Positions 5,132 through 37,847 are shown, counted from the first letter of the stretch. The stretch is 43,733 nt of DNA from Candidatus Nanoarchaeia archaeon (GCA_028693395.1 JAQUVJ010000009.1:1-43733); one strand, 5' to 3'. Notes: generated by a model not told the origin, from the letters alone. Program-made: numbers and translations.

Positions 5132-7324
5132 TCAATTAGGACATGATATCCAACTTGGTTTATAAGAATTTTGTAATGAAGAAGCAGTTGCAAAATCACT
5201 TGGTTCACTCAATATTTTTCCACACCAACTACTTATATCTTGATTAAAATTATTAGCTGCATAAAACATCCTACTCATATCAACAACTTCACTGACATTC
5301 CAATTACCCAATGGTTGATTAAATCTACGTCCAAAAAAAAACATATTGCTCATATCTGTAACTTTACTTACATCCCAATTACCTATGGGTTGATTAAAAA
5401 CATCATTATATGAAAACATCCAATTCATACTTTTAACACTACTTGTATTCCACATACTTATATCTTGATTAAAAATATGAAAAGAAGGATGGCCGGAAAA
5501 CATCCAATTCATATATTCTACTTTTCCAACATCCCATTTGTTTAATGGTTGATTAAATTTAATTGCATATAAAAACATACTATCCATGCTTTTAACATTA
5601 CTTACATTCCAATCATTTAAAGAATTATTAAAACTTCTTGCACCAGAAAACATTCTACCCATATTTTCAACATTACTTGTATCCCACATACTTATATCTT
5701 GATTAAATAAGCTTGCATAATTAAATAATCCATACATTGTTTTTACTTTACTTGTATTCCATTTATACAATGGTTGATTAAAAGAATAAGCTCCTAAAAA
5801 AACTTGATGCATACTCTCCACATTACTAGTATCCCAATCATTAATTGATTGATTAAAATTTGTTCCATCAAAAAACAAAGACCTCATATATCTTAAATTA
5901 CTCGTATTCCACATACCAATTGGTTGATTAAAATGCTTTGTTTCACCAAACATTACCCCAATATCTTCAACTTTACTAAAATTCCAATTATACAATGGTT
6001 GATCAAACTCCTCTGCATAATAAAAAACATAAGTCATATTTGTTACTTTGCTTACATCAAAATTATTTACAGATTGATTAAACTTTTTCGCATAATAAAA
6101 CATATAAGTCATATTCTCTAGACTACTTGTATTCCATCTATTTAATGGTTGATTAAAAACTTCAGCATAATAAAATATTCCTCTCATATCAATGACGTTT
6201 CTTACATCCCAATCATTTATATCACTATTGAAATATTTTGCATTTTGAAATAAATAACTCATATTTACAACATTACTTGTGTTCCATGTGCCTATATTTG
6301 ACACAATTGAAATCCCTGAATTATAAAACATTCTATATAAATCAGTTGTTCCTTCAAGATTTAATATATCTATTGCGGTTATGTTTAAATTTTCTGTTCC
6401 TGAAAAATAATATCCACTATTTCCTAATCTCAAATCTCCCCATTGTTTTATATCCCTTATCTTTAATTTATCTCCTAAATTGTTAAATGTAAATCCTCTA
6501 ATTGTTCCATTTATTTTTATTTCATATTCTCCTTGCTGGAAATATGTATGTGTAACATCTTCTTGATCCCAAGTAATTATATAACTTTGAGTTTCATCTC
6601 CCCAATCAACTGTAAAACTATAATTTCCACTTGATTCTAAAGGTAATTTTATTTGATTTGATGTTGATGAACCAGTTCCTGTCAATCTTGTATCCCATAC
6701 TGAAATAAAATAATTATTTTCATGTTCTGGAACTGTTTGGGTTTCATTTTCAGTTTCATTTATTGTTTCCTCTGAAATCTCTGAATTTTCTAAATCTAAT
6801 GGAATATAAGGATCACTTATTTCAAATCCACAAAGATGTAAATCATTAATTGCTAAACTAGATCCTGAACAAAAATAACTTTCCCCGTTGTTATCAATAT
6901 ATGGAACTAATTCAACATATTCAATTAAATCATTTTCATTTATAAGATTTTTAGAAAAGCCAATTATCTTTAAATTGAAATTTAAATCTTCAACATATTG
7001 ACTATAATCATGAGTTTCACTTGTTGAATTAGAAATCATATTTACTCTAATTCCTTTTAAAACTTCTGTACCTTTTGTTAATCTCACACTAATTGTAACA
7101 TTTTCAGAATCATTTGTGTAACAATAATCTTGTAAATTATTTATTTTCATTAATTTTAGATTTACATTTGTTGCACATGTCAATCTAACATCTGATGTAC
7201 TTGTAGCTTTAACTTGTTCTTCTTTAATATAAGAAGTTCCCCAATTCATAACAACTGATCCAATTGCAACAGTAAATGCGATTAATAAAACTGTTGCAAT
7301 TAATGGTGAAACACTTTTTTTCAT
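5132..7324 (-). CDS. Pilin-like surface protein with WGD/PKD-like and 14 DUF285 repeats
   Basis: First of three tandem paralogues (730 residues). Residues 1-25 are an archaeal type IV pilin N-terminus, KKSVSPLIATVLLIAFTVA, so processing by a PibD-like prepilin peptidase and display in or on the envelope is expected. Residues about 30-175 are a conserved region with four Cys (in LTCATN, QDYCYT, SYFCSG and LHLCGF). A Glu/Thr/Asn linker follows, then a domain with TVDWGDETQSY resembling bacterial PKD-like WGD domains. The rest is 14 units of a 25-residue repeat (consensus FNQxLxxWNxSxVxxMxxMF), the BspA-like DUF285 type, closed by a SSWC cap. Many W-N-x-S units are N-glycosylation sequons. A sugar- or cell-binding adhesin role is inferred. 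It ends YKPSWISCPN. Confidence 0.88.
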   Translation of the reverse strand: MKKSVSPLIATVLLIAFTVAIGSVVMNWGTSYIKEEQVKATSTSDVRLTCATNVNLKLMKINNLQDYCYTNDSENVTISVRLTKGTEVLKGIRVNMISNSTSETHDYSQYVEDLNFNLKIIGFSKNLINENDLIEYVELVPYIDNNGESYFCSGSSLAINDLHLCGFEISDPYIPLDLENSEISEETINETENETQTVPEHENNYFISVWDTRLTGTGSSTSNQIKLPLESSGNYSFTVDWGDETQSYIITWDQEDVTHTYFQQGEYEIKINGTIRGFTFNNLGDKLKIRDIKQWGDLRLGNSGYYFSGTENLNITAIDILNLEGTTDLYRMFYNSGISIVSNIGTWNTSNVVNMSYLFQNAKYFNSDINDWDVRNVIDMRGIFYYAEVFNQPLNRWNTSSLENMTYMFYYAKKFNQSVNNFDVSKVTNMTYVFYYAEEFDQPLYNWNFSKVEDIGVMFGETKHFNQPIGMWNTSNLRYMRSLFFDGTNFNQSINDWDTSNVESMHQVFLGAYSFNQPLYKWNTSKVKTMYGLFNYASLFNQDISMWDTSNVENMGRMFSGARSFNNSLNDWNVSNVKSMDSMFLYAIKFNQPLNKWDVGKVEYMNWMFSGHPSFHIFNQDISMWNTSSVKSMNWMFSYNDVFNQPIGNWDVSKVTDMSNMFFFGRRFNQPLGNWNVSEVVDMSRMFYAANNFNQDISSWCGKILSEPSDFATASSLQNSYKPSWISCPN
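5230..6300 (-). repeat. 75-bp DUF285 repeat array, 14 units plus cap
   Basis: Fourteen in-frame 25-residue units can be counted by their W/F-[DN]-x-S/G/R core, from GTWNTSNV to GNWNVSEV, ending in the Cys-containing SSWC cap. One unit carries a three-residue insertion near 5480 (SGHPSFHIFNQ). At DNA level gttgattaaa recurs at roughly 75-base spacing. Units here are more divergent from each other than in the downstream paralogues, which suggests an older array. Confidence 0.85.
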
Positions 7325-7344
7325 ATACTATATAAAAAAAAATA

Positions 7345-7362
7345 TATATTTAAATTTTTCTT
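7345..7362 (-). promoter_or_regulatory. TATA/BRE block of pilin-DUF285 gene 1
   Basis: The minus strand reads AAGAAAAATTTAAATATA. The same 18-base block, with one mismatch, precedes the other two paralogues at a similar distance. The TATA part is 21-30 bases before the ATG at 7324, consistent with a leaderless mRNA. Confidence 0.65.
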
Positions 7363-7410
7363 ATAAAAAAACAAAATTAAAAATTAAAAATAAAAATTAA
7401 AGTAAAGAAA

Positions 7411-8124
7411 TTAATTTGGACATGTCCCCCAGATTGGTTTATAGGAAGATTGTAAAGTAGATGAATATGAAAAGTAAGATGGTTCTGTTGTAATATTATT
7501 TACACACCAATTACTTATATTCTGATTAAAAGAGGAAGCACTAAAAAACATATAACCCATATATATTACACTACTGACATTCCAATTATCCAAGGGTTGA
7601 TTAAAAAAGGAAGCACTTCTAAACATAGAATCCATTGAAATTACACTACTGACATCCCAATTATTCAAGGATTGATTAAAAAAGAAAGCATTAGAAAACA
7701 TAAAACCCATTGAAGTTACACTACTTACATCCCATTCATTTATTCGAGAAACATTCGATATTCCACTATAATAAAACATTTGATATAATTTTGTTGTTCC
7801 TGTTAGATTTAAAATATCAGTTGCAGTTATATTTAAGTTTGAAGTTCCATAAAAATATCCTCCACTATTTCCTAATCTTAAATTTCCCCATTGCTTTATA
7901 TCTCTTATTTTTAATTTATCTCCAGTATTATTGAATGAAAAACCTGTTATTGTTCCATTTATTTTTATTTCATATTTTCCTTGCTGATCATATGTATGTA
8001 TTACATTAGGATCATTATATGTTGTTATATAATTTTGAGTATTATCTCCCCAATCTACTGTAAAACTATAATTTCCACTTGATTCTAAAGGTAATTTAAT
8101 TTGATTTGATGCTGATGAACCAGT
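7411..8124 (-). pseudogene. Third adhesin module cut off by in-frame TGA
   Basis: This 714-base stretch is the direct in-frame continuation of the upstream gene beyond its TGA at 8125-8127. Translation gives TGSSASNQIKLPLESSGNYS, a WGD domain (VDWGDNTQNY), the IRDIKQWGNLRLGNSGGYF strand region, three DUF285 units and the normal SNWC...YKPIWGTCPN end. No other stop or frameshift interrupts it, so the lesion is a single codon, Gly GGA to TGA relative to the paralogues. An internal ATG at 7779 could start a 122-residue peptide, but without a signal peptide this is unlikely to be a separate gene. It is either a recently inactivated module, a reservoir for recombination, or read through at low level. 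Confidence 0.75.
7490..7750 (-). repeat. DUF285 repeats of stranded module, 3 units plus cap
   Basis: Units NEWDVSSV, NNWDVSSV and DNWNVSSV at 75-base spacing, followed by the SNWCV cap. This is the shortest array in the cluster, and its units are close to those of the neighbouring paralogues. Confidence 0.85.
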
Positions 8125-8127
8125 TCA
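8125..8127 (-). other. In-frame TGA replacing a conserved glycine codon
   Basis: The context on the minus strand is AGTTTAGTTTGAACTGGT. In the last paralogue and in module A of this gene the codon is GGA (Gly), and in module B it is GAA (Glu), so one base change explains the stop. The frame stays open and homologous for another 237 codons. TGA ends TBP and the small gene after it at natural positions, so recoding is not needed to explain this. Confidence 0.85.
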
Positions 8128-11100
8128 AACTAAACTAGTATTCCATACTGAAACAAATTGATTTGCATTATATTCATTTTCAAGATTTATTGGACAAGTT
8201 CCCCATTGTGGTTTAAAATCTGGTTGAATATAAGCTCCAAATGTAAAACTTGCTGGTTCTGTTATAATATTCTCAACACACCAATTACTTATGTTTTGAT
8301 TAAATCTAATTGCGTGACTAAACATCGAATTCATGTTTGTAACACTACTTACATTCCACTGGTATAATGATTGATTAAATTGATATGCTTGACTAAACAT
8401 TGCATTCATATCTGTTACTTTTGAAACATCCCAAGAATTTAATGGTTGATTAAAAAAAGAGGCAGAAGAAAACACCCTTTGCATATTTGTAATTTTACTA
8501 GTATTCCATTTATCTAATGGTTGATTAAATGAAGATGCTTGATGAAATAAATAACTTAAAGATGTTATTTTTGCAATATTCCAATCATTTAATGATCCAT
8601 TAAATTTACTAGCAGAAGAAAACATAGATCCAATATCTGTTACATTACTAACATCCCATCTATCTAAAGGCTGATTAAAAGAAGATGCCGATAAAAACAT
8701 TTGATTCATTGTAGTTACTTTACCAACATTCCATGAATTCAATGGTTGATTAAAATTAAATGCATAAGAAAACATAGCCTCCATATTTATTACATTACTA
8801 ACATTCCAACTATCTAAAGATTGATTAAAAGAAGAAGCCCAAGAAAACATTAACCTCGTAGTCGTTACTTTACTAGTATTCCATTTATCTAATGGTTGAT
8901 TAAAAGAAGATGCCCTATAAAATGTAGCATACATACTATTAACATTACTTACATCCCAATTATTTATATTACTATTAAAATATCCTGCATAATAAAAAGT
9001 TCTATATAAACTAGTTATATTGCTTGTATTCCATTCATCTATTCGAGAAACATTTGATACTCCACTATCATAAAACATTTGAATTAAATTTGTTGTTCCT
9101 GATAAATTTAAAACATCGGTTGCTGTTATGTTTAAGTTTGAAGTTCCATAAAAATAATTTCCACTATTTCCTAATCTCAAATCTCCCCATTGTTTTATAT
9201 CTCTTATCTTTAATTTGTCTCCTAAATTATTAAATGTAAATCCTATAATTGTCCCATTGATTTTTATTTCATATTCTCCTTCCTGATCATATGTATGTGC
9301 AACATCTAATTGATCCCATGATGTTATATAACTTTGAGTTTCATCTCCCCAATCAACTGTAAAACTGTATGTTCCACTTGATTCTAAAGGTAATTTTATT
9401 TGATTTGATGCTGATGAACCAGTTTCAACTAAACTAGTATTCCATACTGAAACAAATTGATTTTCATTATATCCATTTTCGAGATTCATTGGACATGTTC
9501 CCCATTTTGGTTTATAGGAAGATAAAAGAGAGGATGAAGAAAATAAAGATGGTTCTGTTGTTATATTTGTTACACACCAATTACTTATATTTTGATTAAA
9601 AGAAGAACCATAAAACATTGCATGCATATCAGTAACATTACTAACATTCCAACTATCTAAAGATTGATTAAAGGAAGAAGCATATGAAAACATTTGAGAC
9701 ATTGAAACAACATTACTAACATTCCAACTATCCAATGGTTGATTAAAAGAAGAAGCACTAGAAAACATATTTCCCATATTAGTTACTTTACTAACATCCC
9801 AATTATTCAATGGTTGATTAAAACTAGAAGCAGCAGAAAACATTTGTATCATATTAGTTATATTACTTACATTCCAACTATTTAATGGTTGATTAAAACT
9901 AGAAGCATAAAAAAACATCGATCCAAGAGAAGTAACACTACTAAGATTCCAGCTATCTAAAGGTTGATTAAAAGAAGAAGCATATGAAAACATTGCACCG
10001 ACATTAATTACATTACGAACATTCCAACTATTTAATGGTTGATTAAAACTAGAAGCACCATTAAACATATAATACATATTAGTCACTTCACTAACATCCC
10101 AAGAATCTAAAGGTTCATTAAAATTAGAAGCCGAACGAAACATCTCTCCCATATTGATTACACTACTAACATCCCAATCGTTTATTCTAGAAATATTTGA
10201 TATTTTACTATTATAAAACATTTGATTTAATGTTGTTGTTCCTGCTAGATTTAAAACATCTGTTGCAGTTATATTTAAGTTCAAAGTTCCATAAAAATAT
10301 CTTCCATTATTTCCTAATCTTAAATCTCCCCATTGTTTTATATCTTTTATTTTTAATTTATCTCCGTTATTATTAAATGAAAATCCTACAATTGTTCCAT
10401 TGATTTTTATTTCATATTGTCCTTCTTGATTATATGTATGTGTAACATCTTCTTGATTCCAAGTTGTTATATAACTTTGAGTACCATCTCCCCAATCTGC
10501 TGTGAAACTATAGTTTCCATTTGATGCTAAAGGTAATTTTATTTGATTTGATGCTGATGAACCAGTTCCAACTAAACTAGTATTCCATACTGAAACAAAA
10601 TAATAATCTTCATATTCTGGAACTTCTGGATTTTGTGGTTCTTCTGGATCAGCAGGCTCCTCTGGATTTTCTGGATTTTCTGGATTTTCAGGTTCTTGTG
10701 GATTACTTGGAATTACTGGTGAATCTATTTCAAATCCACAAGGATATAAATAAGTAATTGCTAAACTAGATCCAGAACAAAAATAACTCTCACCATTATT
10801 ATCAATATATGGAACTAATTCTACATATTCAATTAAATCATTTTCATTTATAACATTTGTAGAAAAACCAGTTAATTTCAAATTAAAATTTAAATCTTCA
10901 ACATATTGACTATAATCATGAGTTTCACTTGTTGAATTAGAAATCATATTTACTCTAATTCCTTTTAGAACTTCTGTACCTTTTGTTAATCTCACACTAA
11001 TTGTAACATTTTCAGAATCATTTGTGTAACAATAATCTTGTAGATTATTTATTTTCATTAATTTTAGATTTACATTTGTTGCACATGTCAATCTAACATC

Positions 11101-11232
11101 TGATGTACTTGTAGCTTTTACTTGTTCTTCTTTAATATAAGAAGTTCCCCAATTCATAACAACTGATCCAATTGCAACAGTAAATGCGATTAATAAAACT
11201 GTTGCGATTAAAGGTGATACACTTTTTTTCAT
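8125..11232 (-). CDS. Pilin-like surface protein with two WGD-DUF285 modules, ending at premature TGA
   Basis: The longest paralogue, 1035 residues to the TGA and 1272 sense codons if read through to 7411. Residues 1-170 are nearly identical to the first paralogue, including the class III pilin signal. A Pro/Glu/Asn linker (repeated PENPENPEEP-like motif, about 175-205) follows. Module A has a WGD domain and 8 DUF285 units, a SNWCV cap and a WGTCPMNLENGYNENQF linker; module B has a WGD domain, 10 units, a cap and a WGTCPINLENEYNANQF linker. The frame then stops at TSLV, exactly where paralogues read TSLVGTG or TSLVETG. A secreted, prepilin-peptidase-processed adhesin is inferred. Sequons (WNVS, WNTS, FNQS) are frequent. 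Gene conversion with its neighbours is likely from the near-identical blocks. Confidence 0.85.
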   Translation of the reverse strand: MKKSVSPLIATVLLIAFTVAIGSVVMNWGTSYIKEEQVKATSTSDVRLTCATNVNLKLMKINNLQDYCYTNDSENVTISVRLTKGTEVLKGIRVNMISNSTSETHDYSQYVEDLNFNLKLTGFSTNVINENDLIEYVELVPYIDNNGESYFCSGSSLAITYLYPCGFEIDSPVIPSNPQEPENPENPENPEEPADPEEPQNPEVPEYEDYYFVSVWNTSLVGTGSSASNQIKLPLASNGNYSFTADWGDGTQSYITTWNQEDVTHTYNQEGQYEIKINGTIVGFSFNNNGDKLKIKDIKQWGDLRLGNNGRYFYGTLNLNITATDVLNLAGTTTLNQMFYNSKISNISRINDWDVSSVINMGEMFRSASNFNEPLDSWDVSEVTNMYYMFNGASSFNQPLNSWNVRNVINVGAMFSYASSFNQPLDSWNLSSVTSLGSMFFYASSFNQPLNSWNVSNITNMIQMFSAASSFNQPLNNWDVSKVTNMGNMFSSASSFNQPLDSWNVSNVVSMSQMFSYASSFNQSLDSWNVSNVTDMHAMFYGSSFNQNISNWCVTNITTEPSLFSSSSLLSSYKPKWGTCPMNLENGYNENQFVSVWNTSLVETGSSASNQIKLPLESSGTYSFTVDWGDETQSYITSWDQLDVAHTYDQEGEYEIKINGTIIGFTFNNLGDKLKIRDIKQWGDLRLGNSGNYFYGTSNLNITATDVLNLSGTTNLIQMFYDSGVSNVSRIDEWNTSNITSLYRTFYYAGYFNSNINNWDVSNVNSMYATFYRASSFNQPLDKWNTSKVTTTRLMFSWASSFNQSLDSWNVSNVINMEAMFSYAFNFNQPLNSWNVGKVTTMNQMFLSASSFNQPLDRWDVSNVTDIGSMFSSASKFNGSLNDWNIAKITSLSYLFHQASSFNQPLDKWNTSKITNMQRVFSSASFFNQPLNSWDVSKVTDMNAMFSQAYQFNQSLYQWNVSSVTNMNSMFSHAIRFNQNISNWCVENIITEPASFTFGAYIQPDFKPQWGTCPINLENEYNANQFVSVWNTSLV
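8275..9040 (-). repeat. DUF285 repeat array, module B, 10 units plus cap
   Basis: Ten 75-base units, from DEWNTSNI to YQWNVSSV, close with SNWCVENI. Several units share long identical stretches, for example the two whose cores read DKWNTSKV and DKWNTSKI, suggesting duplication or conversion within the array. Confidence 0.85.
9575..10190 (-). repeat. DUF285 repeat array, module A, 8 units plus cap
   Basis: Eight units, from NDWDVSSV to DSWNVSNV, close with SNWCVTNI. Adjacent units share ASSFNQPLDSW or ASSFNQPLNSW almost unchanged, so this array is more homogeneous than that of the first paralogue. Confidence 0.85.
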
Positions 11233-11253
11233 AAATTATATTAGAAAAAAAAG

Positions 11254-11271
11254 TATATTTAAATCTTTCTT
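11254..11271 (-). promoter_or_regulatory. TATA/BRE block of pilin-DUF285 gene 2
   Basis: The minus strand reads AAGAAAGATTTAAATATA, identical to the block before gene 3 and one base different from gene 1. It lies 22-39 bases before the ATG at 11232. Confidence 0.65.
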
Positions 11272-11331
11272 ATAAAAAAACAAAATTAAAAATTAAAAAT
11301 AAAAATTAAAAATAAAAATTAAATCAAAAAA

Positions 11332-12507
11332 TCAATTAGGACATGTCCCCCATATTGGTTTGTAATCAGACAAAAGAGGACTAGAATATGCAAAATATGA
11401 TGGTTCTATTGTTATATTTGTTACACACCAATTGCTTATGTTTTGATTAAAAGAGGAAGCACTAGAAAATGCATAATCCATATCTATAACACTACTTACA
11501 TCCCAATTATCTAATGGTTGATTAAAGGAAGAAGCAAAAAAAAACATTCTATTCATATCTTTAACATTTGAAACATTCCAAATATTCAATGGTTGATTAA
11601 AAGAAGAAGCACCTTGAAACATTGCAGACATACTATTTACATTACTTACATCCCAACTATCCAAGGGTTGATTGAAAGAGGAAGCAACATTAAACATATA
11701 AGACATACTATTTACATTACTAACATCCCAAGAATCTAATGGTTGGTTAAAAGAGGAAGCAACATTAAACATAGCATCCATATTAGTAACATTACCTACA
11801 TTCCATGAACTAATATCTTGATTAAAAGAGGAAGCACCAGAAAACATCCTTAACATACTTCTTACATTACTTACATTCCATAAACTAATGTCTTGATTAA
11901 AAAATGAAGCACCAGAAAACATCCTTAACATACTTCTTACATTACTTACATTCCATTCGTTTATTCGAGAAACATTCGATATTCCACTTATATAAAACAT
12001 TTCATTTAATATGGTTATCCCTGTTAGATTTAAAACATCGATTGCTGTTATGTTTAAGTTTGAAGTTCCAGCAAAATATCCTCCACTATTTCCTAATCTC
12101 AAATCTCCCCATTGTTTTATATCTCTTATCTTTAATTTGTCCCCTAAATTATTAAATGTAAATCCTATAATTGTCCCATTAATTTTTATTTCATATTCTC
12201 CTTCCTGATCATATGTATGTGTAACATCCTCTTGATTCCAAGTCGTTATAAAACTTTGAGTTTCATCTCCCCAATCTACTGTAAAACTATAATTTCCACT
12301 TGATTCTAAAGGTAATTTTATTTGATTTGATGCTGATGAACCAGTTCCAACTAAACTAGTATTCCAAACTGAAACAAATTGATTTGCATTATATTCATTT
12401 TCAAGATTTGTTGGACAAGTTCCCCAATTCATAACAACTGATCCAATTGCAACAGTAAATGCGATTAATAAAACTGTTGCAATTAATGGTGAAACACTTT
12501 TTTTCAT
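11332..12507 (-). CDS. Chimeric short pilin-DUF285 surface protein
   Basis: Third paralogue, 391 residues. The pilin N-terminus is identical to the others up to MNWGT, but the next residues are CPTNLENEYNANQFVSVWNT, which in gene 2 is an inter-module linker, not an N-terminal region. The roughly 160-residue Cys-containing segment of the other two is missing. The join lies in a 10-base sequence (TGGGGAACTT) present at both parental places, so this gene looks like the product of a deletion between the pilin start and a module linker. One WGD domain and 7 DUF285 units follow, then the SNWCV cap and YKPIWGTCPN end. With an intact promoter and frame it is probably expressed and displayed as a shorter adhesin. 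Confidence 0.87.
   Translation of the reverse strand: MKKSVSPLIATVLLIAFTVAIGSVVMNWGTCPTNLENEYNANQFVSVWNTSLVGTGSSASNQIKLPLESSGNYSFTVDWGDETQSFITTWNQEDVTHTYDQEGEYEIKINGTIIGFTFNNLGDKLKIRDIKQWGDLRLGNSGGYFAGTSNLNITAIDVLNLTGITILNEMFYISGISNVSRINEWNVSNVRSMLRMFSGASFFNQDISLWNVSNVRSMLRMFSGASSFNQDISSWNVGNVTNMDAMFNVASSFNQPLDSWDVSNVNSMSYMFNVASSFNQPLDSWDVSNVNSMSAMFQGASSFNQPLNIWNVSNVKDMNRMFFFASSFNQPLDNWDVSSVIDMDYAFSSASSFNQNISNWCVTNITIEPSYFAYSSPLLSDYKPIWGTCPN
11440..11965 (-). repeat. DUF285 repeat array with recent 75-bp duplications, 7 units plus cap
   Basis: Seven units, from NEWNVSNV to DNWDVSSV. Unit 11821-11895 and the bases from 11896 share an uninterrupted stretch of more than 40 identical bases encoding VSNVRSMLRMFSGAS. 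A second near-identical pair lies at about 11640-11790 (DSWDVSNVNSM twice). These indicate recent tandem expansion. Confidence 0.87.
12417..12426 (-). other. Recombination junction in the chimeric pilin gene
   Basis: TGGGGAACTT on the minus strand. The same 10 bases occur at 11142-11151 (after the pilin N-terminus of gene 2) and at 8196-8205 (a module linker). Upstream of it gene 3 matches the pilin start; downstream, about 45 bases match the linker at 8150-8196 with one mismatch. Confidence 0.8.
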
Positions 12508-12527: not shown

Positions 12528-12545
12528 TATATTTAAATCTTTCTT
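12528..12545 (-). promoter_or_regulatory. TATA/BRE block of pilin-DUF285 gene 3
   Basis: The minus strand reads AAGAAAGATTTAAATATA. It starts transcription toward 12507 and lies in a 90-base spacer shared with the divergent radical SAM promoter. Confidence 0.65.
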
Positions 12546-20965: not shown

Positions 20966-23900
20966 TTATTTATTTTTCAATTCTTTTAAATTGAAAATTT
21001 TAGACATTGTATTCCAAAAATAATCATGCTGTGTCATATTAAATTTATGTAAATACTTTTGAATATCAATTAAATTACTAAAAATTGTTTCAATTCTTAC
21101 ATTTGCATCATAATAATTATTTAAAATTCTGAAAATATCTAATTTTTCATCAACTAAGAACACTTCTTTTTTATCTAAATTGTTGTATAACCAATTATAA
21201 TTTTTTTTATTATTATGTGAATACAATAATTTTATCAAAAACAAAAATCTTTCTTCTTCTAAATCAATTCCTAATAATTTCTTTAAATTAGCAATTATAA
21301 AAGAAAATTTACCTTGGTTTTCATTATTTAATTTTTCTAAATTTTTTATATAAATTCTCATTTTTTTTATATTTATTTTTAAATGTCCATTTTGCTTTAA
21401 TTTATAGTTTTGATATTTTTTATATTGTTCATTTATTTTTTTGAAATCATCAGCCGCACTTGGAATATTTACTTTTTTATTCAATAAATTAGATAATATT
21501 TTTGAATAATAATCTTCAATATCTTTTTCTTTTAAATTAAAAATTATTTTTAAATTTTCAAAAATAAATCCTTGACTAACAAATATATCAATATTTTTAA
21601 TAACATCTAATTTTATTTTATTAAATTCTTTATATTCAATTTCAAATGATTGTAAGAATTCTTTTTCGATTGCTTCAAAATTAATATTTTTATTTAAATA
21701 AATTTGATTATAATAATGAACATATATTTGAAAAGATGAAATTATTGATGTATTTGTTAAACAAAGTGAATAAAAAATATTTTTTGGATTATTGTTTAAT
21801 AATTTATTTATCTTATCATCTTTTGAAAAAATTTCTCTTCTTTTTTCAAATTCTAAAAAATCTTTTTTGAAATCAACTTCACTTAAATTATAAAGGTTTT
21901 GTTGAAAATAATAATTTAATGAAAATGAATTTAACTTATCTATTTTTATTAAACTATTTTTAATATCATCAAATACATAATAAACTGAACTTAATGATTT
22001 CTTTGATGTAAATTTTATGGTTCTTTGTAAATTTGTAATAATATTATTATTAATTACTTCTATTAATTTTTCTCCTTCTTTTTCTCTTTCATTAATATCT
22101 GCAACTACTTTTTTAAGATTTTTATATTCATCAATTATATTTTTTTGAAATTCTTTTTGATCTTTTTTAAATTCTTCTTGCATTTTTTTTAATTCAGATA
22201 TTCCATCAACTTTTTGATCTATGTTGTTTAATCTTTCTCCAACTTCTTTTTGAGATTCATTTATTGATTTTACTAACTCTTTATTTATTCCAATTAGATA
22301 ATTCACTCTTTTTCCTAAAATATTTTCTAAAATATCTTTTACTATTTTTTTATTTTGTGGATTATCTAAATTTACTAATTCCATTATTTTTTTTATTTGT
22401 AAATCATTTCTTTCAAAACCTTCTTTTATTTGTTTTGCAAGTGGTTCATAAACTTCTTTTTTTACTTGTACTAACATATTTTCTACTACTGCATTAATTT
22501 TTGATTCTAAGCTCTTTGATAATACTAATAAATCATTTAATGCACCTTTTATGTCTTTATGTGAATCTTTTATTATTTTTAATGATTGTTCATTATTTTT
22601 AGAAATTATTTCTTTTAATGATTCATATAATTTTAAATTATTAACAATAATTCCACTATAATTCTTTTGATTAAAGTCAAACAATTCTTTTATGGAATGC
22701 ATTATATAAGTGCTTCCTTCTACCAATCCTTCACCTAAAACTGAAATAAAATTACCAAATTCATCCATAAATTTTTCTTGGTTATTTTCAAAATTATTAA
22801 TTTTACTTATTATTTTAGCATTAGCAGCACCAACGCCTCTTTTAACTTTTTTTATTTCTAATAAGAATTCTCTTAATTTTTCTATTTCGTTAATTATCTC
22901 TTTATTATTTGGATTTTTTGAATCAGATTGTGCTTGAAGAGCTTCTATTTGACCTAAAATCTTTTCTTTTTCTATAATATCTTCTTTTTTATCATTAAAA
23001 GAATCTTGATTTTCTGTTGGGTTTTGAGAAATCAAAGTTTCTAATTCTTTTTTTTCTTTTTTTACATCTTCCTTTATTTCTCCAAAGATTGCTCTTATTT
23101 CATCTTCTTCTTCATTAGGCATTGTCATTAAAATTTCTGCTTCATTTCCTAAAGCATCTGGATCTCCTAAGTCTATTGCTTGCTCAACATTATTAATAAC
23201 TCCTTTAACTATATCACTTTGATTTTTTGAAGATTGATCTATATCGCTTTTTACTTCTTCGTCTGCCTTCTCAACTTTTTTTTCTGCTTCTATAATTGGT
23301 TTATCTCTTTTTTCTCTTTCTTTTATTTCTTGTTTTATTTCTATTCCCTCAGGAGTTATCATTTTTGTTAAACTTGTTAATAACAAAATAACAAACACAA
23401 TAAAAGAAATTTGCCAAATATTATATCCAATTATTAAAAACTTCAAGAAAGCATAATAAGGATTTGATTGTGAAACTAAATCATTAATATCATTTTCAAA
23501 ACCTAATTTTAATTGATTATTTGTACTTAAATATCTAATACTTCCATCACTTAAAACTTCAACATTTAATCCATAACCTCCCATCAATAAAGGGAAAAAA
23601 ATAATTAAAAATGCACCTAAGATTATTGCAAATCTTTTTAAATATAAACTTGAACCTTCAAAACTTTCATCTTCTTTAGAAAAAGCACTTTTAACTATTG
23701 CTATAACAAAAAATAAAAGTATAATAAATAAAAAATAAGGACTTGCTAGAAATAGTTTTCTAAATGTTCCAAATAAACCTGCATGAAGACCATAAGAAGT
23801 TGATATTCCCATTATTAATCCAAGAACATAACCTATTTTTCTTACATCTTCTTCATGTCCTTTCATTACATTTGCAAGACCATAAGAAATCAAAGTTATT

Positions 23901-24049
23901 GATAAGAAACTTAAAAATAAAGCATCTATAAAAAATGAATATTTGTCATAAAAATTTATTGCAACTTTTGATTTATCTTCTATTGCATAAGAAAAACTTG
24001 ATATAACTAATACTAACATTAAAAAACTAAATATTTTATTTGAATTCAT
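20966..24049 (-). CDS. Polytopic membrane protein with very long cytosolic or external coiled coil
   Basis: I do not recognise this 1027-residue protein. A signal-like first helix (residues 5-22, ending SYA) is followed by about five hydrophobic segments near 38-60, 70-90, 103-122, 138-157 and 203-228. After MITPEGIEIKQ the chain turns highly charged: residues 235-700 are mostly Lys/Glu-rich helix with repeated heptads, containing Asp/Glu-rich and Gln/Ser-rich stretches. The last 330 residues are helical, rich in Lys, Asn and aromatics, and look globular. No enzymatic motif, ATPase loop or Cys pair is seen. The layout recalls chemoreceptor-like or membrane scaffold proteins, or those that tether surface structures, but no HAMP or signalling hairpin is clear. 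It lies next to an S-layer-like gene on the same strand, 326 bases downstream of it. Confidence 0.72.
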   Translation of the reverse strand: MNSNKIFSFLMLVLVISSFSYAIEDKSKVAINFYDKYSFFIDALFLSFLSITLISYGLANVMKGHEEDVRKIGYVLGLIMGISTSYGLHAGLFGTFRKLFLASPYFLFIILLFFVIAIVKSAFSKEDESFEGSSLYLKRFAIILGAFLIIFFPLLMGGYGLNVEVLSDGSIRYLSTNNQLKLGFENDINDLVSQSNPYYAFLKFLIIGYNIWQISFIVFVILLLTSLTKMITPEGIEIKQEIKEREKRDKPIIEAEKKVEKADEEVKSDIDQSSKNQSDIVKGVINNVEQAIDLGDPDALGNEAEILMTMPNEEEDEIRAIFGEIKEDVKKEKKELETLISQNPTENQDSFNDKKEDIIEKEKILGQIEALQAQSDSKNPNNKEIINEIEKLREFLLEIKKVKRGVGAANAKIISKINNFENNQEKFMDEFGNFISVLGEGLVEGSTYIMHSIKELFDFNQKNYSGIIVNNLKLYESLKEIISKNNEQSLKIIKDSHKDIKGALNDLLVLSKSLESKINAVVENMLVQVKKEVYEPLAKQIKEGFERNDLQIKKIMELVNLDNPQNKKIVKDILENILGKRVNYLIGINKELVKSINESQKEVGERLNNIDQKVDGISELKKMQEEFKKDQKEFQKNIIDEYKNLKKVVADINEREKEGEKLIEVINNNIITNLQRTIKFTSKKSLSSVYYVFDDIKNSLIKIDKLNSFSLNYYFQQNLYNLSEVDFKKDFLEFEKRREIFSKDDKINKLLNNNPKNIFYSLCLTNTSIISSFQIYVHYYNQIYLNKNINFEAIEKEFLQSFEIEYKEFNKIKLDVIKNIDIFVSQGFIFENLKIIFNLKEKDIEDYYSKILSNLLNKKVNIPSAADDFKKINEQYKKYQNYKLKQNGHLKINIKKMRIYIKNLEKLNNENQGKFSFIIANLKKLLGIDLEEERFLFLIKLLYSHNNKKNYNWLYNNLDKKEVFLVDEKLDIFRILNNYYDANVRIETIFSNLIDIQKYLHKFNMTQHDYFWNTMSKIFNLKELKNK

Positions 24050-24375
24050 AGAAAAATTAAAGAGATTTCTATTTATAAAACTTACTATATTATATTTTTT
24101 AAATTGTCATACTTAATTAATATTTTAGATATTTAATATAATATAAAAATATTAAAATATTAAAATATTAAAAAATACAAAATTATCTTAAAAATAAATA
24201 ATATATAAAAAAGAATTAAATATTAAAAAATATATAATAAAAAAGATAAAACAAAAAAGATAAAATAAGAAAATAAAATAAAAAAATAACGAAAATCAAG
24301 AAAAAAAAATTTAAAAAAAAAGATTTAAAAAAAAAGAAATAAAAAAAAAATAAAAAAATTAAGAAAAAAAAACAA
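24050..24375. other. 326-base AT-only-like spacer
   Basis: No gene is visible. The right part (24290-24375) gives long T runs on the minus strand right after the S-layer-like gene and probably terminates it. The left part (24050-24120) holds AT elements including tttataaaa and tatattata and must contain the promoter of the 1027-residue gene; a single best TATA box cannot be chosen. Between them are A-rich stretches with taaaatatt direct repeats near 24145-24172. Confidence 0.55.
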
Positions 24376-27240
24376 TCATTTCTTTGGTAATAACAACAAC
24401 ACTAAAACTCCTATTAACAATAAAACAAATACTGATAATAATATTGTTGTTCCATAATTTCCTGATTGATTATTTTCATTATTTTCGTTATCTCCATCAG
24501 TTATTATTGGTGGAACTGGTACATATTCTGAATCATCATCGTCACTATCATCATCGTCATCATCACTATCTATTGAACATGCTTGTTTTGTTAAACTTAA
24601 TGAATTTATTGTTATAGCTTTATTATCATAATAAATATAACCTAATATAGTATATTTTTTCTCAGGTAAATTTTTTATGTCATATGTCTTTGAAAAGCTA
24701 TATTCATCATCTTCACCATATTTTTCAACTTCAACCAAATCAAAAACTGTATCAATTCCTAAATCATTACTTGCTACTTGAACAATAACGTTTCTATTTC
24801 TTGAACCTAAATTTTGGATTGTTCCACTTATGGTAAATCTATCTTCACATTTTATTGTTGATGGACTTAATTTTAATTCTGTGAAAACAACATGTGTTGT
24901 TTTTCTTTCAATATCTAAGTCTAATTCAGCTACTAAATCTTCAAATGAATTACTATCTTCATCTTCATATTCTACAGTTATTATAACTCTGTATTCTGAG
25001 ATATCTTCATCTAAGTCTAATGGTAAACTAACATCAAAATTATATGTACTTGATTTACTTGCTTTTAATTCGAAATCTTTTTCAAATTCTAAATCGTCTC
25101 CATCATCTATTTCTTCAATTATTAAATTAATTACTCCATCAATATCTCCTTCATCATCTGAAGAATCGTATAGATTTTCTAATTTTAATTTTAAAATAAA
25201 AGACTCTCCTGGATTAGCTGTAAAAGATGATCCATCAGACAATTCTTTTTTATTTGTATTATCACTAAATTCTACTGTTATATCTTCAATTTCTAATTTT
25301 GGTGAAACAACTCTTCTTAAAGAAAATGTTCTTTGAATTGTTTCATATCCATCTGATAAGTTTACTTGGAATGAGTATGTTCCTCCAACTCTTAAATTTG
25401 AAAGTCCATAAATTAATCCTGTAGAACTTACAGAAACATCAGCTGGTAAAGTTACAGGTGTTACAGTAATTATGTCAGAATCTGCATCATACATCTTTAA
25501 TTGATATGTACTTAAAGATTCATCAACTCTAATTGTTGCAGATTCATTTAATTCTGGAACTGAGTTTAACATTTGTTCTGAAACAACTCTATAAGTTGAA
25601 AAATGATCAACTGTAAACCAAACAATTCCGTTTTCATAATTAACAACTAAACTTGAACAATTATCTCTTAAAAATCTTTTTTCAGTTACTTTTCCTGATG
25701 CACATGAAACAATTGGTTTTGAACTAAATCCTGTTAAACTGATATTAGCTTTATTATCACCTAAAATTGTTCCTGATAATACATGAATTAAAACATCTTT
25801 ATTTACTCCTGATGTTGATTCTGAAAAATCAATCCATGATGATAAATCAATTGGTTTAGTTGATAAATCTAATCTATTAACCCAATCAATTGTTACTCCA
25901 CTTCTTGAAATTTTAATATCTGCATTGGAAATATCTGAAAAATCTCCATCAACAACAAAAGAAGAAACAACTGGTTTATCAACCCATGAAATTGTTATTG
26001 CTTTTTTAACAGTATGTGTTGAATTATGAACAATTTCAACTTCGACACTTGTAGAATTACCTACATCTGCTTGAGTTAAAACAATTTCTTTTCCTGTAGT
26101 TCCTTTATCAACACTATTTATTTTATATAAAAAAGTATTTGTATCTGGATCTTCTATTGTAAATGTAATTGGACTTAAAAATCCTCTATAAAATTGATAT
26201 GTTGTTTGATTTAATACAATTACTGGAATATCATCTACTGGCAAAACATTTATGTTAAATTGCATGTTAAGTGGATTTGAAATATAAGAACTATCTAATA
26301 TTGTTAAATTTACAATGCAACTTCCATAAAAATTTTCATTTGGTGTAAAAATAAAATCTGTTCCTGAAATTCTTCCAGTACAATCTGTTCCTGAAAAAAC
26401 ATATGACAAACCTGCTATTCCATCATCATCATAAAACCAACTATTTACATTACCATTACTATCAATACTAAAATTTATTGGAATAGTTACTGAATTATCT
26501 TCATTAGTTTGTAAATTAACTGTTGCTTGATTTAAAAAAGGAATTGCATCTAATGTGTTTACTGAAAGAACAATTTTCTTTGTATATTGAAATGTAATAG
26601 AATCATATGTTACATTATATTTTACATTATATTCTGAATTTCCATTTTTTGTATAAAATACATTTGTGAATTTTATCTTTCCTGATGCTATTTGTGAATT
26701 AACAAAAGCTCCAGTTAAAGGAGTTATACTATCTAAAACAATTGATAATCCTGCAATATTATTAAAATTTGCTCTTTGAGTTTCTAATAATGAATTACTA
26801 TCAATTTCTTTTATAACATCTAAATTATAATCAACTTTTTCATTAATTGAAGTTGAATATACTTGAGAAGCAAATGAAACAGTAATATCTTTTTCGCTTA
26901 ATAATACACTATCAAAAGTATCATAAACTTTTACTTTATAATTTCCAGCTGGTGCTGAAGAATTAAGTAAAAAAGTTAAATTAAAAAATACTTGATTTGT
27001 ATAATTTTTTCCAAAAAATAAATTATCTGCTTTATCTCTTACTTCTATTCTGAAATCATCGCTTGTAATTGGTGTATTATTTGTCATATTAACAACTAAT
27101 CCTTGGATGTATTTCATTGAATCATAAGAATTAAATGTAGTTGTTGGCACATTTGCAGTCCAATCACCAGCTGCACTTAATCCAAAACTCATCATTATTA
27201 CACTAAATAATAATAGATATCCTATATTTTTTATTTTCAT
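24376..27240 (-). CDS. S-layer-like secreted protein with Ig/cadherin-like domains and C-terminal anchor
   Basis: From ATG 27240 the protein has 954 residues. A signal peptide (KNIGYLLLFSVIMMSFGLSA) is cut near AAGDW. The body is all-beta: several 80-110-residue segments look like Ig, PKD or cadherin-like domains, for example one starting PFLNQATVNLQTNEDNSVTI and one PELNESATIRVDESLSTYQL with the SVSSTGLIYG turn. An acidic domain with many Asp/Glu follows, then a domain with two Cys (SPSTIKCEDRF and LTKQAC), an Asp-only-like linker (DSDDDDDDSDDDDSEY), Pro and Asn linkers, and a terminal helix TTILLSVFVLLLIGVLVLLL ending PKK. Architecture and size fit the proposed S-layer proteins of DPANN archaea. 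ATG 27240 is preferred over 27288 because of the GGTGG site six bases before it. Confidence 0.8.
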   Translation of the reverse strand: MKIKNIGYLLLFSVIMMSFGLSAAGDWTANVPTTTFNSYDSMKYIQGLVVNMTNNTPITSDDFRIEVRDKADNLFFGKNYTNQVFFNLTFLLNSSAPAGNYKVKVYDTFDSVLLSEKDITVSFASQVYSTSINEKVDYNLDVIKEIDSNSLLETQRANFNNIAGLSIVLDSITPLTGAFVNSQIASGKIKFTNVFYTKNGNSEYNVKYNVTYDSITFQYTKKIVLSVNTLDAIPFLNQATVNLQTNEDNSVTIPINFSIDSNGNVNSWFYDDDGIAGLSYVFSGTDCTGRISGTDFIFTPNENFYGSCIVNLTILDSSYISNPLNMQFNINVLPVDDIPVIVLNQTTYQFYRGFLSPITFTIEDPDTNTFLYKINSVDKGTTGKEIVLTQADVGNSTSVEVEIVHNSTHTVKKAITISWVDKPVVSSFVVDGDFSDISNADIKISRSGVTIDWVNRLDLSTKPIDLSSWIDFSESTSGVNKDVLIHVLSGTILGDNKANISLTGFSSKPIVSCASGKVTEKRFLRDNCSSLVVNYENGIVWFTVDHFSTYRVVSEQMLNSVPELNESATIRVDESLSTYQLKMYDADSDIITVTPVTLPADVSVSSTGLIYGLSNLRVGGTYSFQVNLSDGYETIQRTFSLRRVVSPKLEIEDITVEFSDNTNKKELSDGSSFTANPGESFILKLKLENLYDSSDDEGDIDGVINLIIEEIDDGDDLEFEKDFELKASKSSTYNFDVSLPLDLDEDISEYRVIITVEYEDEDSNSFEDLVAELDLDIERKTTHVVFTELKLSPSTIKCEDRFTISGTIQNLGSRNRNVIVQVASNDLGIDTVFDLVEVEKYGEDDEYSFSKTYDIKNLPEKKYTILGYIYYDNKAITINSLSLTKQACSIDSDDDDDDSDDDDSEYVPVPPIITDGDNENNENNQSGNYGTTILLSVFVLLLIGVLVLLLLPKK

Positions 27241-27246
27241 GGTCTT

Positions 27247-27251
27247 CCACC
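27247..27251 (-). promoter_or_regulatory. Ribosome site deciding the S-layer-like start
   Basis: GGTGG on the minus strand, six bases before ATG 27240. It places the start 16 codons inside the longest frame and puts the signal peptide at the true N-terminus. Confidence 0.7.
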
Positions 27252-27285
27252 TAATATTGATTACTACTTGATAGTAAACTTTATT

Positions 27286-27296
27286 CATTTATAAAG
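27286..27296 (-). promoter_or_regulatory. TATA box of the S-layer-like gene
   Basis: CTTTATAAATG on the minus strand. A start about 25 bases downstream leaves a leader of roughly 25 bases that carries the GGTGG site. Confidence 0.55.
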
Positions 27297-31046: not shown

Positions 31047-32015
31047 TTATGGCCATAATGTTATTTTTTGTGCACTAATAACATCTGGAATAGTTAATGA
31101 AAAACTTACAATAGAACCCCTTTTTGGAACAAATTGAAATTCTACTTTTTGATTTGGTTTTAAAACTTTCGCATCTGAAAATTTATATAATAATCTCAAG
31201 ATTTCACCAGATTCTACAATAAAATTACTGTTTCCTAAACTTGTTACAGAACAATATCTTGTTTCTGGAATTAAATGATTTATATTATCTAAACTACAAA
31301 CGTATTCTATTGGATTTAATGTTATTTTTAAAGCACCATCGGTTGGTTTTATAACATTTGCTTCGGTTATTGTTAGCTCTGCAGTAACAAATCCCCATGC
31401 TAAATTTCCAGTACCATAATCTTCTTCTTTTATCATAACATCTGAAACATTTATAACATTGCCAACTTCTATTTTATCATTTAAAATTGCAAAAGCAATT
31501 CTATCGTTTTTTGATAATTTAAATTCTAAAGCATCAACTGAAGAATTATAAGAAACAATTCTTATTTGGTCTTCATATATATCTCCATCTAAATCTCTTG
31601 AAATTGTATAATTTGTTGTTACAGTTTCTCCATGAATTGTATCAAAAGGATCTCCATTTAAGTCAATATCGTTTGTTTGAGTTTGAAGAGTTGCACCTAA
31701 AGAAAAATCTTTTGATGTGAAAGTCATACCTGCACTTTTTAATTGGACATCAGGGGAACCTGCACTCAATCTTATCAATACCTCTAAAGATTCAATTTCT
31801 TCATTTAAAACATCTGCATTTCCTAATATAGAAATAACATCTATTCCTGTAACTAATCTCTCTCTTGCTTCATTACCAACAGCATATGCTCTGTCTTGCA
31901 AGGCAGATGAAGTCATAACTAGTACTGATGCTGCAACTGAAGCGACTAATACCATTGCAATAAATATAATCATGGTACCTACACCATCTACAGCTTTTTT
32001 GGATTTTATTTTCAT
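31047..32015 (-). CDS. Archaellin-like protein
   Basis: The 322-residue protein from ATG 32015 begins MKIKSKKAVDGVGTMIIFIA and continues MVLVASVAASVL, a class III signal with the archaellin hydrophobic core; cleavage by a FlaK/PibD-like peptidase after G11 is expected. SSALQDRAYAVGNEARERLV is the next typical archaellin stretch. The rest is beta-rich with two Cys (VCSLDN and RYCSVT) and potential sequons (NYTIS, NVSD). It could be the filament subunit of an archaellum or a related pilus. No motor, ATPase or accessory arl genes are in the window. ATG 32015 is preferred over 32039 because of a GTGAG site six bases upstream and because it gives the correct signal length. Confidence 0.85.
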   Translation of the reverse strand: MKIKSKKAVDGVGTMIIFIAMVLVASVAASVLVMTSSALQDRAYAVGNEARERLVTGIDVISILGNADVLNEEIESLEVLIRLSAGSPDVQLKSAGMTFTSKDFSLGATLQTQTNDIDLNGDPFDTIHGETVTTNYTISRDLDGDIYEDQIRIVSYNSSVDALEFKLSKNDRIAFAILNDKIEVGNVINVSDVMIKEEDYGTGNLAWGFVTAELTITEANVIKPTDGALKITLNPIEYVCSLDNINHLIPETRYCSVTSLGNSNFIVESGEILRLLYKFSDAKVLKPNQKVEFQFVPKRGSIVSFSLTIPDVISAQKITLWP

Positions 32016-32071
32016 CTTCAACTCACTTATGTAATTCATTATAGTTTATTATTATTAAATGTTTTTAACCA

Positions 32072-34697: not shown

Positions 34698-37600
34698 TTA
34701 TATTTTATCTATCTTATCAAAAACAGATTCTTTAGATTTTATTTCATCTTCCAAATCTTCAAAAATATCTTTTTCTTCTTTATTATTTTCTTTATTATCT
34801 TTTTTATCTTTATTTTCTTGGTTTTTATCAATATCTTTACTAATTATTTTTTCTATTTCATCATTTGATTTATTTTCTGTTTTTTCTGTCGATTTTGTTT
34901 CATCATCATTTAACAAAGATTCTATTTCTTTTTTAAGATCATCTTTTCTTTGTTTTAACTCATTTTCTCTTCTTGCTTCTATTTCTTTTAATTGATCTAT
35001 CATTTCTGCTTCTTTGTTTTCTTTTTTAATTCCTTCAATATCTTCCATTGTTATTTTTCTACTATTTGTTTCTTGAATTTCTTTTAATTTTTTAACAGCT
35101 CTTAATTTTTCTAATAATTCTTCTTTTGATAAATTTTTAAAATCATCTTTTGAAAAAGATTGTTTTTCTTCTTCTTTTATTTGTTTTGATTTTATATTTA
35201 TTCTATTAATAATTCCTTGTCTTTTTTCTTTTGAACTTGTTGTAAATGATTTTGAATTTTTAAGTTTCTCAGATAAATTACTAACATTTTCTTTGTTAAT
35301 ATTTATATTTTTTATACTATTAAATTTATTTTCATTTGATGTATTTACAAATTCTTTTGAAAAATTATCATTATTAATTCTTGAATTATTATTCATTCTT
35401 CTTTGAATTATACTTTGACCTGCATTTCTTGAATTTGATCCAAAACTCATTTGATTCATATTTCTATTAATGTTTCCATTTTGATTATTCTGATCAAATT
35501 GATTGCTTTGATTATTTTGATTACTTTGATTTGTTTGATCATTCTTTTTATTAGTATTTTTATCATAATTATTCTTGCTTTTATGAGCATATGCATAATA
35601 ACCAAATGAACCTACAATTAAAATTATAAAACCTAATCCAATGTATAATAATGACATTAATGGATTTTTTTCTTTAAATCCTGCTTCTTTTGCGTCTTCT
35701 TCATTTTGTTCTTTCATAGATTCTAATTCTGATTGGGTATATTGAGAACATTGTTTTGTTAATTGTGAACATACCCCTGTTTGACAATCTGAATCTTTTG
35801 AACAATATAAACCAACATCACATTTTTCACAACTACTTCCTCCGCAATCAACATCAGATTCGTATTGGTTTTTAAATCCATCATCACATGTTGGAATTTT
35901 ACAAATTTTTTCATCTAAATTACAAAAGCCTGATTGACAATCTGAATCTTTTTCGCATTTTGAATCAACTTCGCATTTTAATCCTCTAATTGTACAAGGA
36001 CCTCCGCAATCACGACCCATTTCACCTAAACTTGTATCAAAAATATAATTATAACAATGATTTAATACACAATATCCTTTAACACAATCCGCATTGTCTT
36101 GACAATCAGCATTTCTATTGCAATAAGCATTTAATTCACATTTTTTACAAGGTCCTCCACAATCAATATCAGATTCTCCTTGATTTTTAATTCCATCACT
36201 ACACGTTGCAATTCCTTCAGGAGTTAAACTTAAATCTTTTTTAAATCTTGAACATTTTTCTATTATATTTCCTGCACCATCTTTAACAAAAAGACAAACT
36301 TCGTATTCTCTATCAATTTCTAAAGTATAAGGAATTTCTATTTCTTTTGAAATGTTTTTTTCTTTTTTGTAATTTATTCCATAATTACTACAATCTAAAC
36401 TTTTTCCTTCTATTTTTAAAAAACACTCTTTAAATTCAAAATTATCGTACAAACTAATACTTGCATTTATTACATTTTTATATGTATCTCTTGCATTTAT
36501 TGATACTTCTGGATCTAAGAAATCAAAATAAAGAATTTTACTCATATCGTCTTTTAATCCAAAACTTGCAAAATTTTCAAAACTACAATTAACAATTAGA
36601 TGAATTTCGCTTAAATCTTTTATAATTGGACGATCTGGAATAATAACTTCATGAATTTTTCTTGCAATATTTAAAGAAACAGGTGATTCATTGAATTCTG
36701 TTATTTTATATTTGCATGTAGATTCTCTATTAGTACTTATTATAAATTTTAAATCTCTATTCAAATATTTATCTGGCTTTATTGATAATATTTTGTTGTC
36801 TGCTTGTGAATCTACTAAAACAGTAAACTCTTTTTCTACCATATTTCCAACAAAATCTTCACACTCAAGCTTAAAATCATATTCTTTATTATTTAAATTT
36901 GTAACAAGCAAAGATATTCCATCTTTTTTATACTCACTTGTAAATACACCTTGAAAATCATTATGTGAGTATTTACAAATAACTGGTTCTGATGCATTTA
37001 TTTTAATTTCTAAAATTTCGTTATAAATAACATTATCTCCGTAAGTAAAATCAATTTCAGGTAGTTTATCATCTAAAACAATTTTATAATTATAAACTTG
37101 AGAATATTCTATTTCGAATATATCATATAATTTCATATCTAAAAAGTATTCCTCTTGTCCTTCTTCTGGCATTGTAAAACTTAAAGATTCAAAATCTATT
37201 GAAAATACATGATTATTTATTGTTAATTCATTAAAACCACCAGCATCTGATTTTTCTTTATATAATTTATATTCCATTTTTTTTAATTGTTCTGTAGATG
37301 TAAATTCTAAATCGTTTTCTAATGTATTAATCAATATATAATTAATATTATTAATTTTCTTTTGTTTAAAATTTGTTGTTAAAGATGGAATTGGTCTTGT
37401 TATCCTTATTGTACTTGTTTTTTCTTTTAATTCGTTATTATGATCAAGATATTTTAATACAAAATTATATGCTCCTTCATATAAAAAATCTATACCTTCT
37501 AAAGTAAATTCATAATAATCATCTGAAACTTTATCATAATTTAAATTTATTATAGTAGGACCTTGATACAAATATGCATCTATTATATTTGGTTTATAAT

Positions 37601-37733: not shown

Positions 37734-37800
37734 TTTTATCTATATTTTTCAATTTATATTATATTTTTGTTATATGTTTTTATCTTTTATTGTTTTTTTA

Positions 37801-37839
37801 TTAATTTTTATTAATTTTTATTAATTTTTATTAATTTAA
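37801..37839. repeat. 10-bp tandem repeat in spacer
   Basis: ttaattttta repeats about four times in the 114-base spacer between two surface-protein genes. T-rich on the plus strand, it is A-rich for the minus-strand transcript and thus no terminator for it. Confidence 0.8.
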
Positions 37840-37847
37840 TTACTTTT

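Follow-up and report, generated by a model that had tools for sequence, protein, structure and literature searches.

What kind of surface protein is encoded by three tandem genes of a Candidatus Nanoarchaeia archaeon, and how have these genes come to differ? The window, that is the whole stretch of DNA analysed, covers 43,733 nucleotides (nt) of this genome (GCA_028693395.1, JAQUVJ010000009.1:1-43733), and positions are counted from its first letter. The genes, called A, B and C, lie between 5132 and 12507 on the minus strand of contig C26. Each joins archaeal type IV pilin sequence to a WGD domain and arrays of DUF285/PARCEL repeats. An earlier note on this DNA had described a tandem cluster of pilin-anchored adhesins with modular exchange, and its gene coordinates and strand were correct. 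Our analysis indicates that these genes probably belong to a family of pilin-displayed repeat adhesins that is spread over the genome and has been diversified by homologous recombination. The genes and their parts are the following.

11332..12507, minus strand: gene A, 391 amino acids (aa), with a pilin H-domain (30 aa), a WGD/PKD-like domain, 7 DUF285 units and a Cys-containing cap
7411..11232, minus strand: gene B, 1273 codons if one in-frame TGA is read through, with a pilin domain and three WGD-DUF285 modules (8, 10 and 3 units)
5132..7324, minus strand: gene C, 730 aa, with a pilin domain, linker, WGD domain, 14 DUF285 units and a cap
10729..11232, minus strand: complete pilin domain of gene B (168 aa)
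6821..7324, minus strand: complete pilin domain of gene C, 94% DNA identity with gene B
10213..10605, minus strand: WGD (PKD-like) domain, module 1 of gene B
8125..8127, minus strand: in-frame TGA closing the gene B open reading frame ahead of module 3
7411..8124, minus strand: module 3 of gene B, 3' of the stop, otherwise open
12528..12537, minus strand: TATA-like TTTAAATATA upstream of gene A
11254..11263, minus strand: TATA-like TTTAAATATA upstream of gene B
7345..7354, minus strand: TATA-like TTTAAATATA upstream of gene C

Genes B and C share the complete pilin domain of about 168 aa, and gene A keeps its first 30 residues. Thus the shared N-terminus described earlier exists, but it is not identical in all three genes. 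Each of them carries KKSVSPLIATVLL, a pilin signal of the form KKS/VSPLIATVLL (the slash marks the expected cleavage site), and the nearest models in profile searches were Pilin_N and TIGR02537. The latter, which describes a prepilin signal followed by a hydrophobic helix, was matched at 21.6-23.2 bits for a cut-off of 20. The term class III pilin, used in the earlier note, is apt only if taken broadly, for prepilin-type signals in general. The QxSxExxxL motif of the narrow class III signal was not present in A, B or C, and this narrow assignment was rejected, the three genes having KKSVSPLIATVLL instead.

The 168-aa domain of gene B was found in 285 of the 353 genomes of the order (187 of 220 genera). 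Among the matches listed outside its own genome, no open frame was longer than 344 aa, as expected of an ordinary stand-alone pilin. An alignment of 22 members showed 19 invariant positions, two of which are Cys, and two further Cys are nearly invariant. When a profile of these 22 domains was compared with the sequences of the PDB, 8 matches were obtained at E-values up to 10, and most of them were pilins or pilus cores of archaea. At the top stood 8fk7, a 'Flagellin' (E 9e-5), and Natrinema PilA2, Iho670, the adhesion filament core 3j1r and the Pilin_N protein 8fj5 followed at weaker E-values. Gene A used as query gave no match among PDB sequences. An AlphaFold2 (AF2) model of the domain consisted of a helix (residues 7-52) and then 8 strands, with a predicted local distance difference test score (pLDDT) of 80. 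The genome also encodes a T2SSE ATPase, a T2SSF platform protein and one A24 prepilin peptidase; a cluster of small pilins is present on contig C39, and on contig C27 a pilin adjoins a secretion ATPase. Judged by sequence comparison, the 168-aa anchor is an order-wide pilin, homologous to stand-alone and to solved archaeal pilins, and the prepilin reading of the N-terminus holds.

Behind this anchor, DUF285 (PF03382) was matched in A, B and C at 424-697 bits (cut-off 25), and TIGR02167, 'PARCEL repeat', at 85-167 bits (cut-off 30). The repeat is a tandem unit with a period of 25 residues, whose copy number varies among genes, and the WGD domain is a weak match to PKD. The name 'BspA-like', given previously, is loose for these PARCEL/DUF285 repeats. 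Differing repeat numbers were confirmed, with 7 units in A, 8+10+3 in B and 14 in C. As to the one to three modules announced for each gene, A and C have one, and B has two, its third lying beyond the stop. The TGA at 8125, where the open frame of gene B ends, is read as GGA in sister copies, and module 3 remains open in the same frame. Recoding of TGA was rejected, because genes A and C themselves terminate with this codon. As had been noted, the promoters are nearly identical: a separate AT-rich leader precedes every gene and contains TTTAAATATA some 25 nt ahead of the ATG. Scans for sigma-70 promoters and terminators are uninformative in this archaeon.

The three genes do form a tandem cluster, but it is just one of at least four loci of pilin-DUF285 genes in this genome, where DUF285 occurs on contigs C16, C26, C43 and C46. 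At least eight DUF285 genes (at least five beyond A, B and C) begin with this pilin domain, either complete or cut down to the N-terminal 30 residues. They include a tandem pair on C16 (L011), named D16 and E16, with about 29 and about 22 units, a pair on C43 (L012), F43 and G43, of which F43 has 20 units, and a single gene on C46 (L013). Genes for tRNA-Glu and tRNA-Met (L011:959-1181) immediately precede the D16/E16 pair and may mark an integration site. On contig C23 (L055:2010-3548), the same pilin domain is joined to an FGE-sulfatase/C-lectin-like domain, matched at 26.7 bits (cut-off 23.3). This fold is a frequent target of diversity-generating retroelements. Such an element was considered because of this copy, and rejected, as no reverse transcriptase was found in the assembly, which is 88% complete.

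How did the copies diverge? Modular exchange among paralogues, as proposed in the earlier note, was supported at the DNA level by a fusion in gene A, a mosaic in gene C and an abrupt loss of identity between D16 and E16. The segments concerned in A, B and C are listed here.

12417..12426, minus strand: 10-nt microhomology TGGGGAACTT at the gene A fusion point, common to pilin codons and inter-module linker
8196..8205, minus strand: TGGGGAACTT in the gene B linker that joins module 2 to module 3, a sequence of the donor type with respect to gene A
5228..6286, minus strand: gene C repeat array, units 1-9 collinear with and closest to units of the contig C16 gene

The first 91 nt of gene A are exactly those of gene C, and inter-module linker sequence follows. 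The switch occurs at TGGGGAACTT, the sole word of 10 nt or more common to the pilin 5' end and the remainder of gene B. The reading frame is preserved over the fusion, and the A linker is slightly unlike that of B. For gene C, 116 sites were informative in the pilin domain, 91 of them like B versus 12 like D16, whereas over nine units of the array 127 of 203 sites were like the collinear D16 units versus 50 like the best unit in A, B or F43 (Fisher p 8e-24). In a scan along the gene, the switch fell around codon 325-350, where the WGD domain meets the array. The same pattern could have arisen by transfer of the array or by gene conversion between the pilin ends of B and C. Counted from the ATG, the first 1506 nt of D16 and E16 do not differ at any position, and identity is then lost abruptly within a repeat unit. 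Between F43 and G43, two differences are found in the first 563 nt, before divergence in the linker. Adjacent units of gene A are 95% identical, a sign of recent duplication. The frame was kept at all breakpoints examined, and arrays are open over up to 29 units.

The ratio of nonsynonymous to synonymous substitution rates (dN/dS) over the pilin domain was 0.12-0.42 (0.12 for the B-C pair); by this measure, the domain is under purifying selection. Over the arrays, it was 0.36-0.45. Within the unit, eight of the 25 positions had a ratio of 1.1, versus 0.15 elsewhere, a contrast that is a hint only because the positions were picked by eye. These values bear on an alternative in which tandem paralogues undergo neutral birth and death, by duplication, unequal crossing-over and decay, the array being a spreading repeat DNA of the PARCEL type. 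The overall ratio over arrays is in line with such a process, as are the interruption of gene B and the horizontal mobility and patchy distribution of PARCELs (PMC2996958), DUF285 being patchy in the order too. However, the long open arrays, the frame kept at each breakpoint and the concentration of change at eight positions argue otherwise, and we find neutral birth and death a rather unlikely explanation.

DUF285 was detected in 16 of 353 genomes and 11 of 220 genera of the order, and in 16 of 371 genomes of a phylum sample. A scan of named GTDB genomes with the pilin-WGD alignment as query returned no relative. Named relatives of the WGD-DUF285 module were found among bacteria (Flavobacteria, Myxococcales, Bdellovibrio-like bacteria and Spirochaetes) and archaea (Lokiarchaeota, Heimdallarchaeota, Pacearchaeota and Woesearchaeota). 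The earlier statement that DUF285 proteins are known mainly from bacterial surfaces would have been fair in 2010, as no PARCEL had then been found in the archaeal genomes available (Roske et al., PMC2996958). They are now seen, patchily, in Nanoarchaeota-type and Asgard archaea, and a later paper reports DUF285 from Thaumarchaeota of sponges (PMC7848895). Phage or viral relatives of the module amounted to 61 IMG/VR contigs (loci L164-L224) and 104 phage records, and phage carriage is a possible route of spread.

Named relatives with a readable start are nearly all placed behind Sec, lipoprotein-like or plain membrane N-termini. Asgard copies follow plain N-terminal membrane helices, and bacterial ones Sec or lipoprotein-like signals. 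Could the pilin-like helix, then, be no more than a transmembrane anchor, so that the proteins are membrane-anchored repeat proteins that never enter a filament? That the same modules stand behind such N-termini elsewhere favours this possibility, as do the size of the C-terminal parts (350-1200 aa, far above most pilins) and gene A, which retains the helix only. Yet in B, C and the other paralogues the pilin domain is present in full, including four conserved Cys, and is under purifying selection, and genes for pilus machinery are present in the genome; we therefore judge a plain membrane anchor unlikely.

A search for pilin N-termini joined to DUF285 in archaea, suggested in the earlier note, revealed further pilin-type anchors in one genus of the same order, in G100, and in G509, which belongs to another order. 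DUF285 proteins of G100 (L237, L238) have a QAALEFL-type signal, QAALEFLTTYGWAF, which is a different prepilin-like anchor. Four species of the genus (G333, G335, G336 and G337; L257-L269) share one anchor type, and G083, of the same genus, has an ArlF-like anchor. The shared anchor matches the solved pilus protein 8fk7 (5e-6), aligns with the pilin of genes B and C only across the N-terminal part, and is present in 8-23 copies per genome. The modules read on these amplified anchors were LamG, LVIVD, SBBP and FG-GAP, with DUF285 too, and several copies have internal stops. In another genome (G026, L035), a gene of archaellin type adjoins a DUF285 protein of 2165 aa.

Several points weigh against the account of a pilin-displayed family diversified by recombination. 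The Pfam model Pilin_N (PF07790) was matched below its gathering score (15.8 versus 25.2), but the model seems to miss this branch, because a stand-alone homologue of the domain in the same genome also stays below it, at 17.4. Among PDB structures, Foldseek found nothing significantly similar to the AF2 models of the pilin and of gene C. The breakpoints are proof that exchange took place in the past, not that variation is still going on; one genome per species was compared. No arrangement of silent cassettes and expression site was seen, as each paralogue appears to have its own promoter. Birth-and-death decay also occurs in the family, gene B being interrupted. Finally, the assembly is fragmented into 48 contigs, of which C43, C46, C36 and C9 end inside the family. 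Such fragmentation, together with long identical blocks, a classic assembly hazard, could mean that paralogues or strain variants were misjoined in metagenome assembly into false mosaics and the 1506-nt block, but this is improbable overall: the halves of gene C differ by 3-25% from their relatives, so that neither is a copy of an assembled paralogue, the fusion in gene A falls on a 10-nt word, keeps the reading frame and leads into a linker slightly different from that of B, and the intergenic sequences of D16 and E16 differ. Assembly error is thus unlikely for genes A and C, and may apply to the D16/E16 identical block. The alternatives considered overlap with the preferred account, and confidence in one does not exclude another.

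If the genes are indeed pilin-displayed adhesins, the prepilin peptidase would be expected to cleave at KKS/VSP, and the protein would be anchored by its hydrophobic helix, either in the membrane or within a filament resembling type IV pili. The beta-rich pilin domain and a Pro/Glu/Asn-rich linker would expose the WGD domain and the solenoid of DUF285/PARCEL repeats on the outside, and residues at the variable positions of the 25-aa units may there bind ligands, for instance on a partner cell. Homologous recombination between paralogues, together with gain and loss of repeats, would make the copies diverge, with arrays and modules exchanged and the pilin end conserved.

Known PARCEL/DUF285 proteins (PF03382, TIGR02167; PMC2996958) likewise have tandem 25-aa units, a conserved hydrophobic core with variable hydrophilic positions, a surface location, a patchy distribution and within-genome shuffling. 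The published examples are lipoproteins or Sec/transmembrane proteins of bacteria and eukaryotic microbes, whereas the anchor here is a complete archaeal pilin. Their coding DNA shows dyad symmetry; here none was detected above synonymous-codon shuffles, a test stricter than and different from the MEME test of the PARCEL paper. The nearest precedent appears to be PilX2, a minor pilin of Saccharibacteria whose C-terminal part is a beta-propeller and for which a role as T4P-2 adhesin has been proposed (PMC12206443). It has in common with our family an ultrasmall organism, a pilin N-terminus and a large C-terminal domain proposed to bind, but it belongs to a bacterial pilus and is a single gene with a propeller, in contrast to an archaeal multi-copy family with variable repeat arrays. 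With archaeal type IV pilins (PF07790, TIGR02537), the proteins share the N-terminal signal, helix, beta domain and order-wide homologues; ordinary ones measure about 150-250 aa, and those described here 390-1400 aa. In Neisseria, pilin antigenic variation combines a conserved pilin N-terminus with a variable C-terminal part altered by recombination among copies. The present family resembles it in these features; however, Neisseria uses silent cassettes and a single expression site and varies the pilin itself, whereas here each copy has its own promoter and the added domain varies. Both PARCEL/DUF285 repeats and the archaeal pilin are known; their union in a multi-copy mosaic family is new as far as the literature searched (open-licence papers) goes, in which no report of a pilin-DUF285 fusion was found.

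Elsewhere in the window, 31047-32039 encodes a protein of the archaellin/flagellin family (330 aa; PF01917, 73 bits), to which the archaellin-type gene of G026 is similar. Several proteins of very large size (807-1147 aa), predicted to lie at the surface or in the membrane and scarcely matched in Pfam, are encoded at 20966-27288 and 34698-43698.

PARCELs are thus present in Archaea, patchily, and on pilin-type anchors in several lineages, which bears on the remark of 2010 that they were absent (PMC2996958). It is conceivable, and we propose it tentatively, that Nanoarchaeota-type archaea repeatedly made type IV pilins into display platforms, by amplifying an anchor and recombining DUF285, LamG, propeller or FGE/C-lectin modules on it, and so diversified their repertoire for recognizing partner cells. 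For partner recognition and attachment by ultrasmall DPANN archaea, this family provides concrete candidate adhesins tied to a pilus machinery, and its defined breakpoints make diversification by recombination testable. For an archaeon with a tiny genome, the family suggests a changeable set of adhesive proteins, possibly for gripping other cells.

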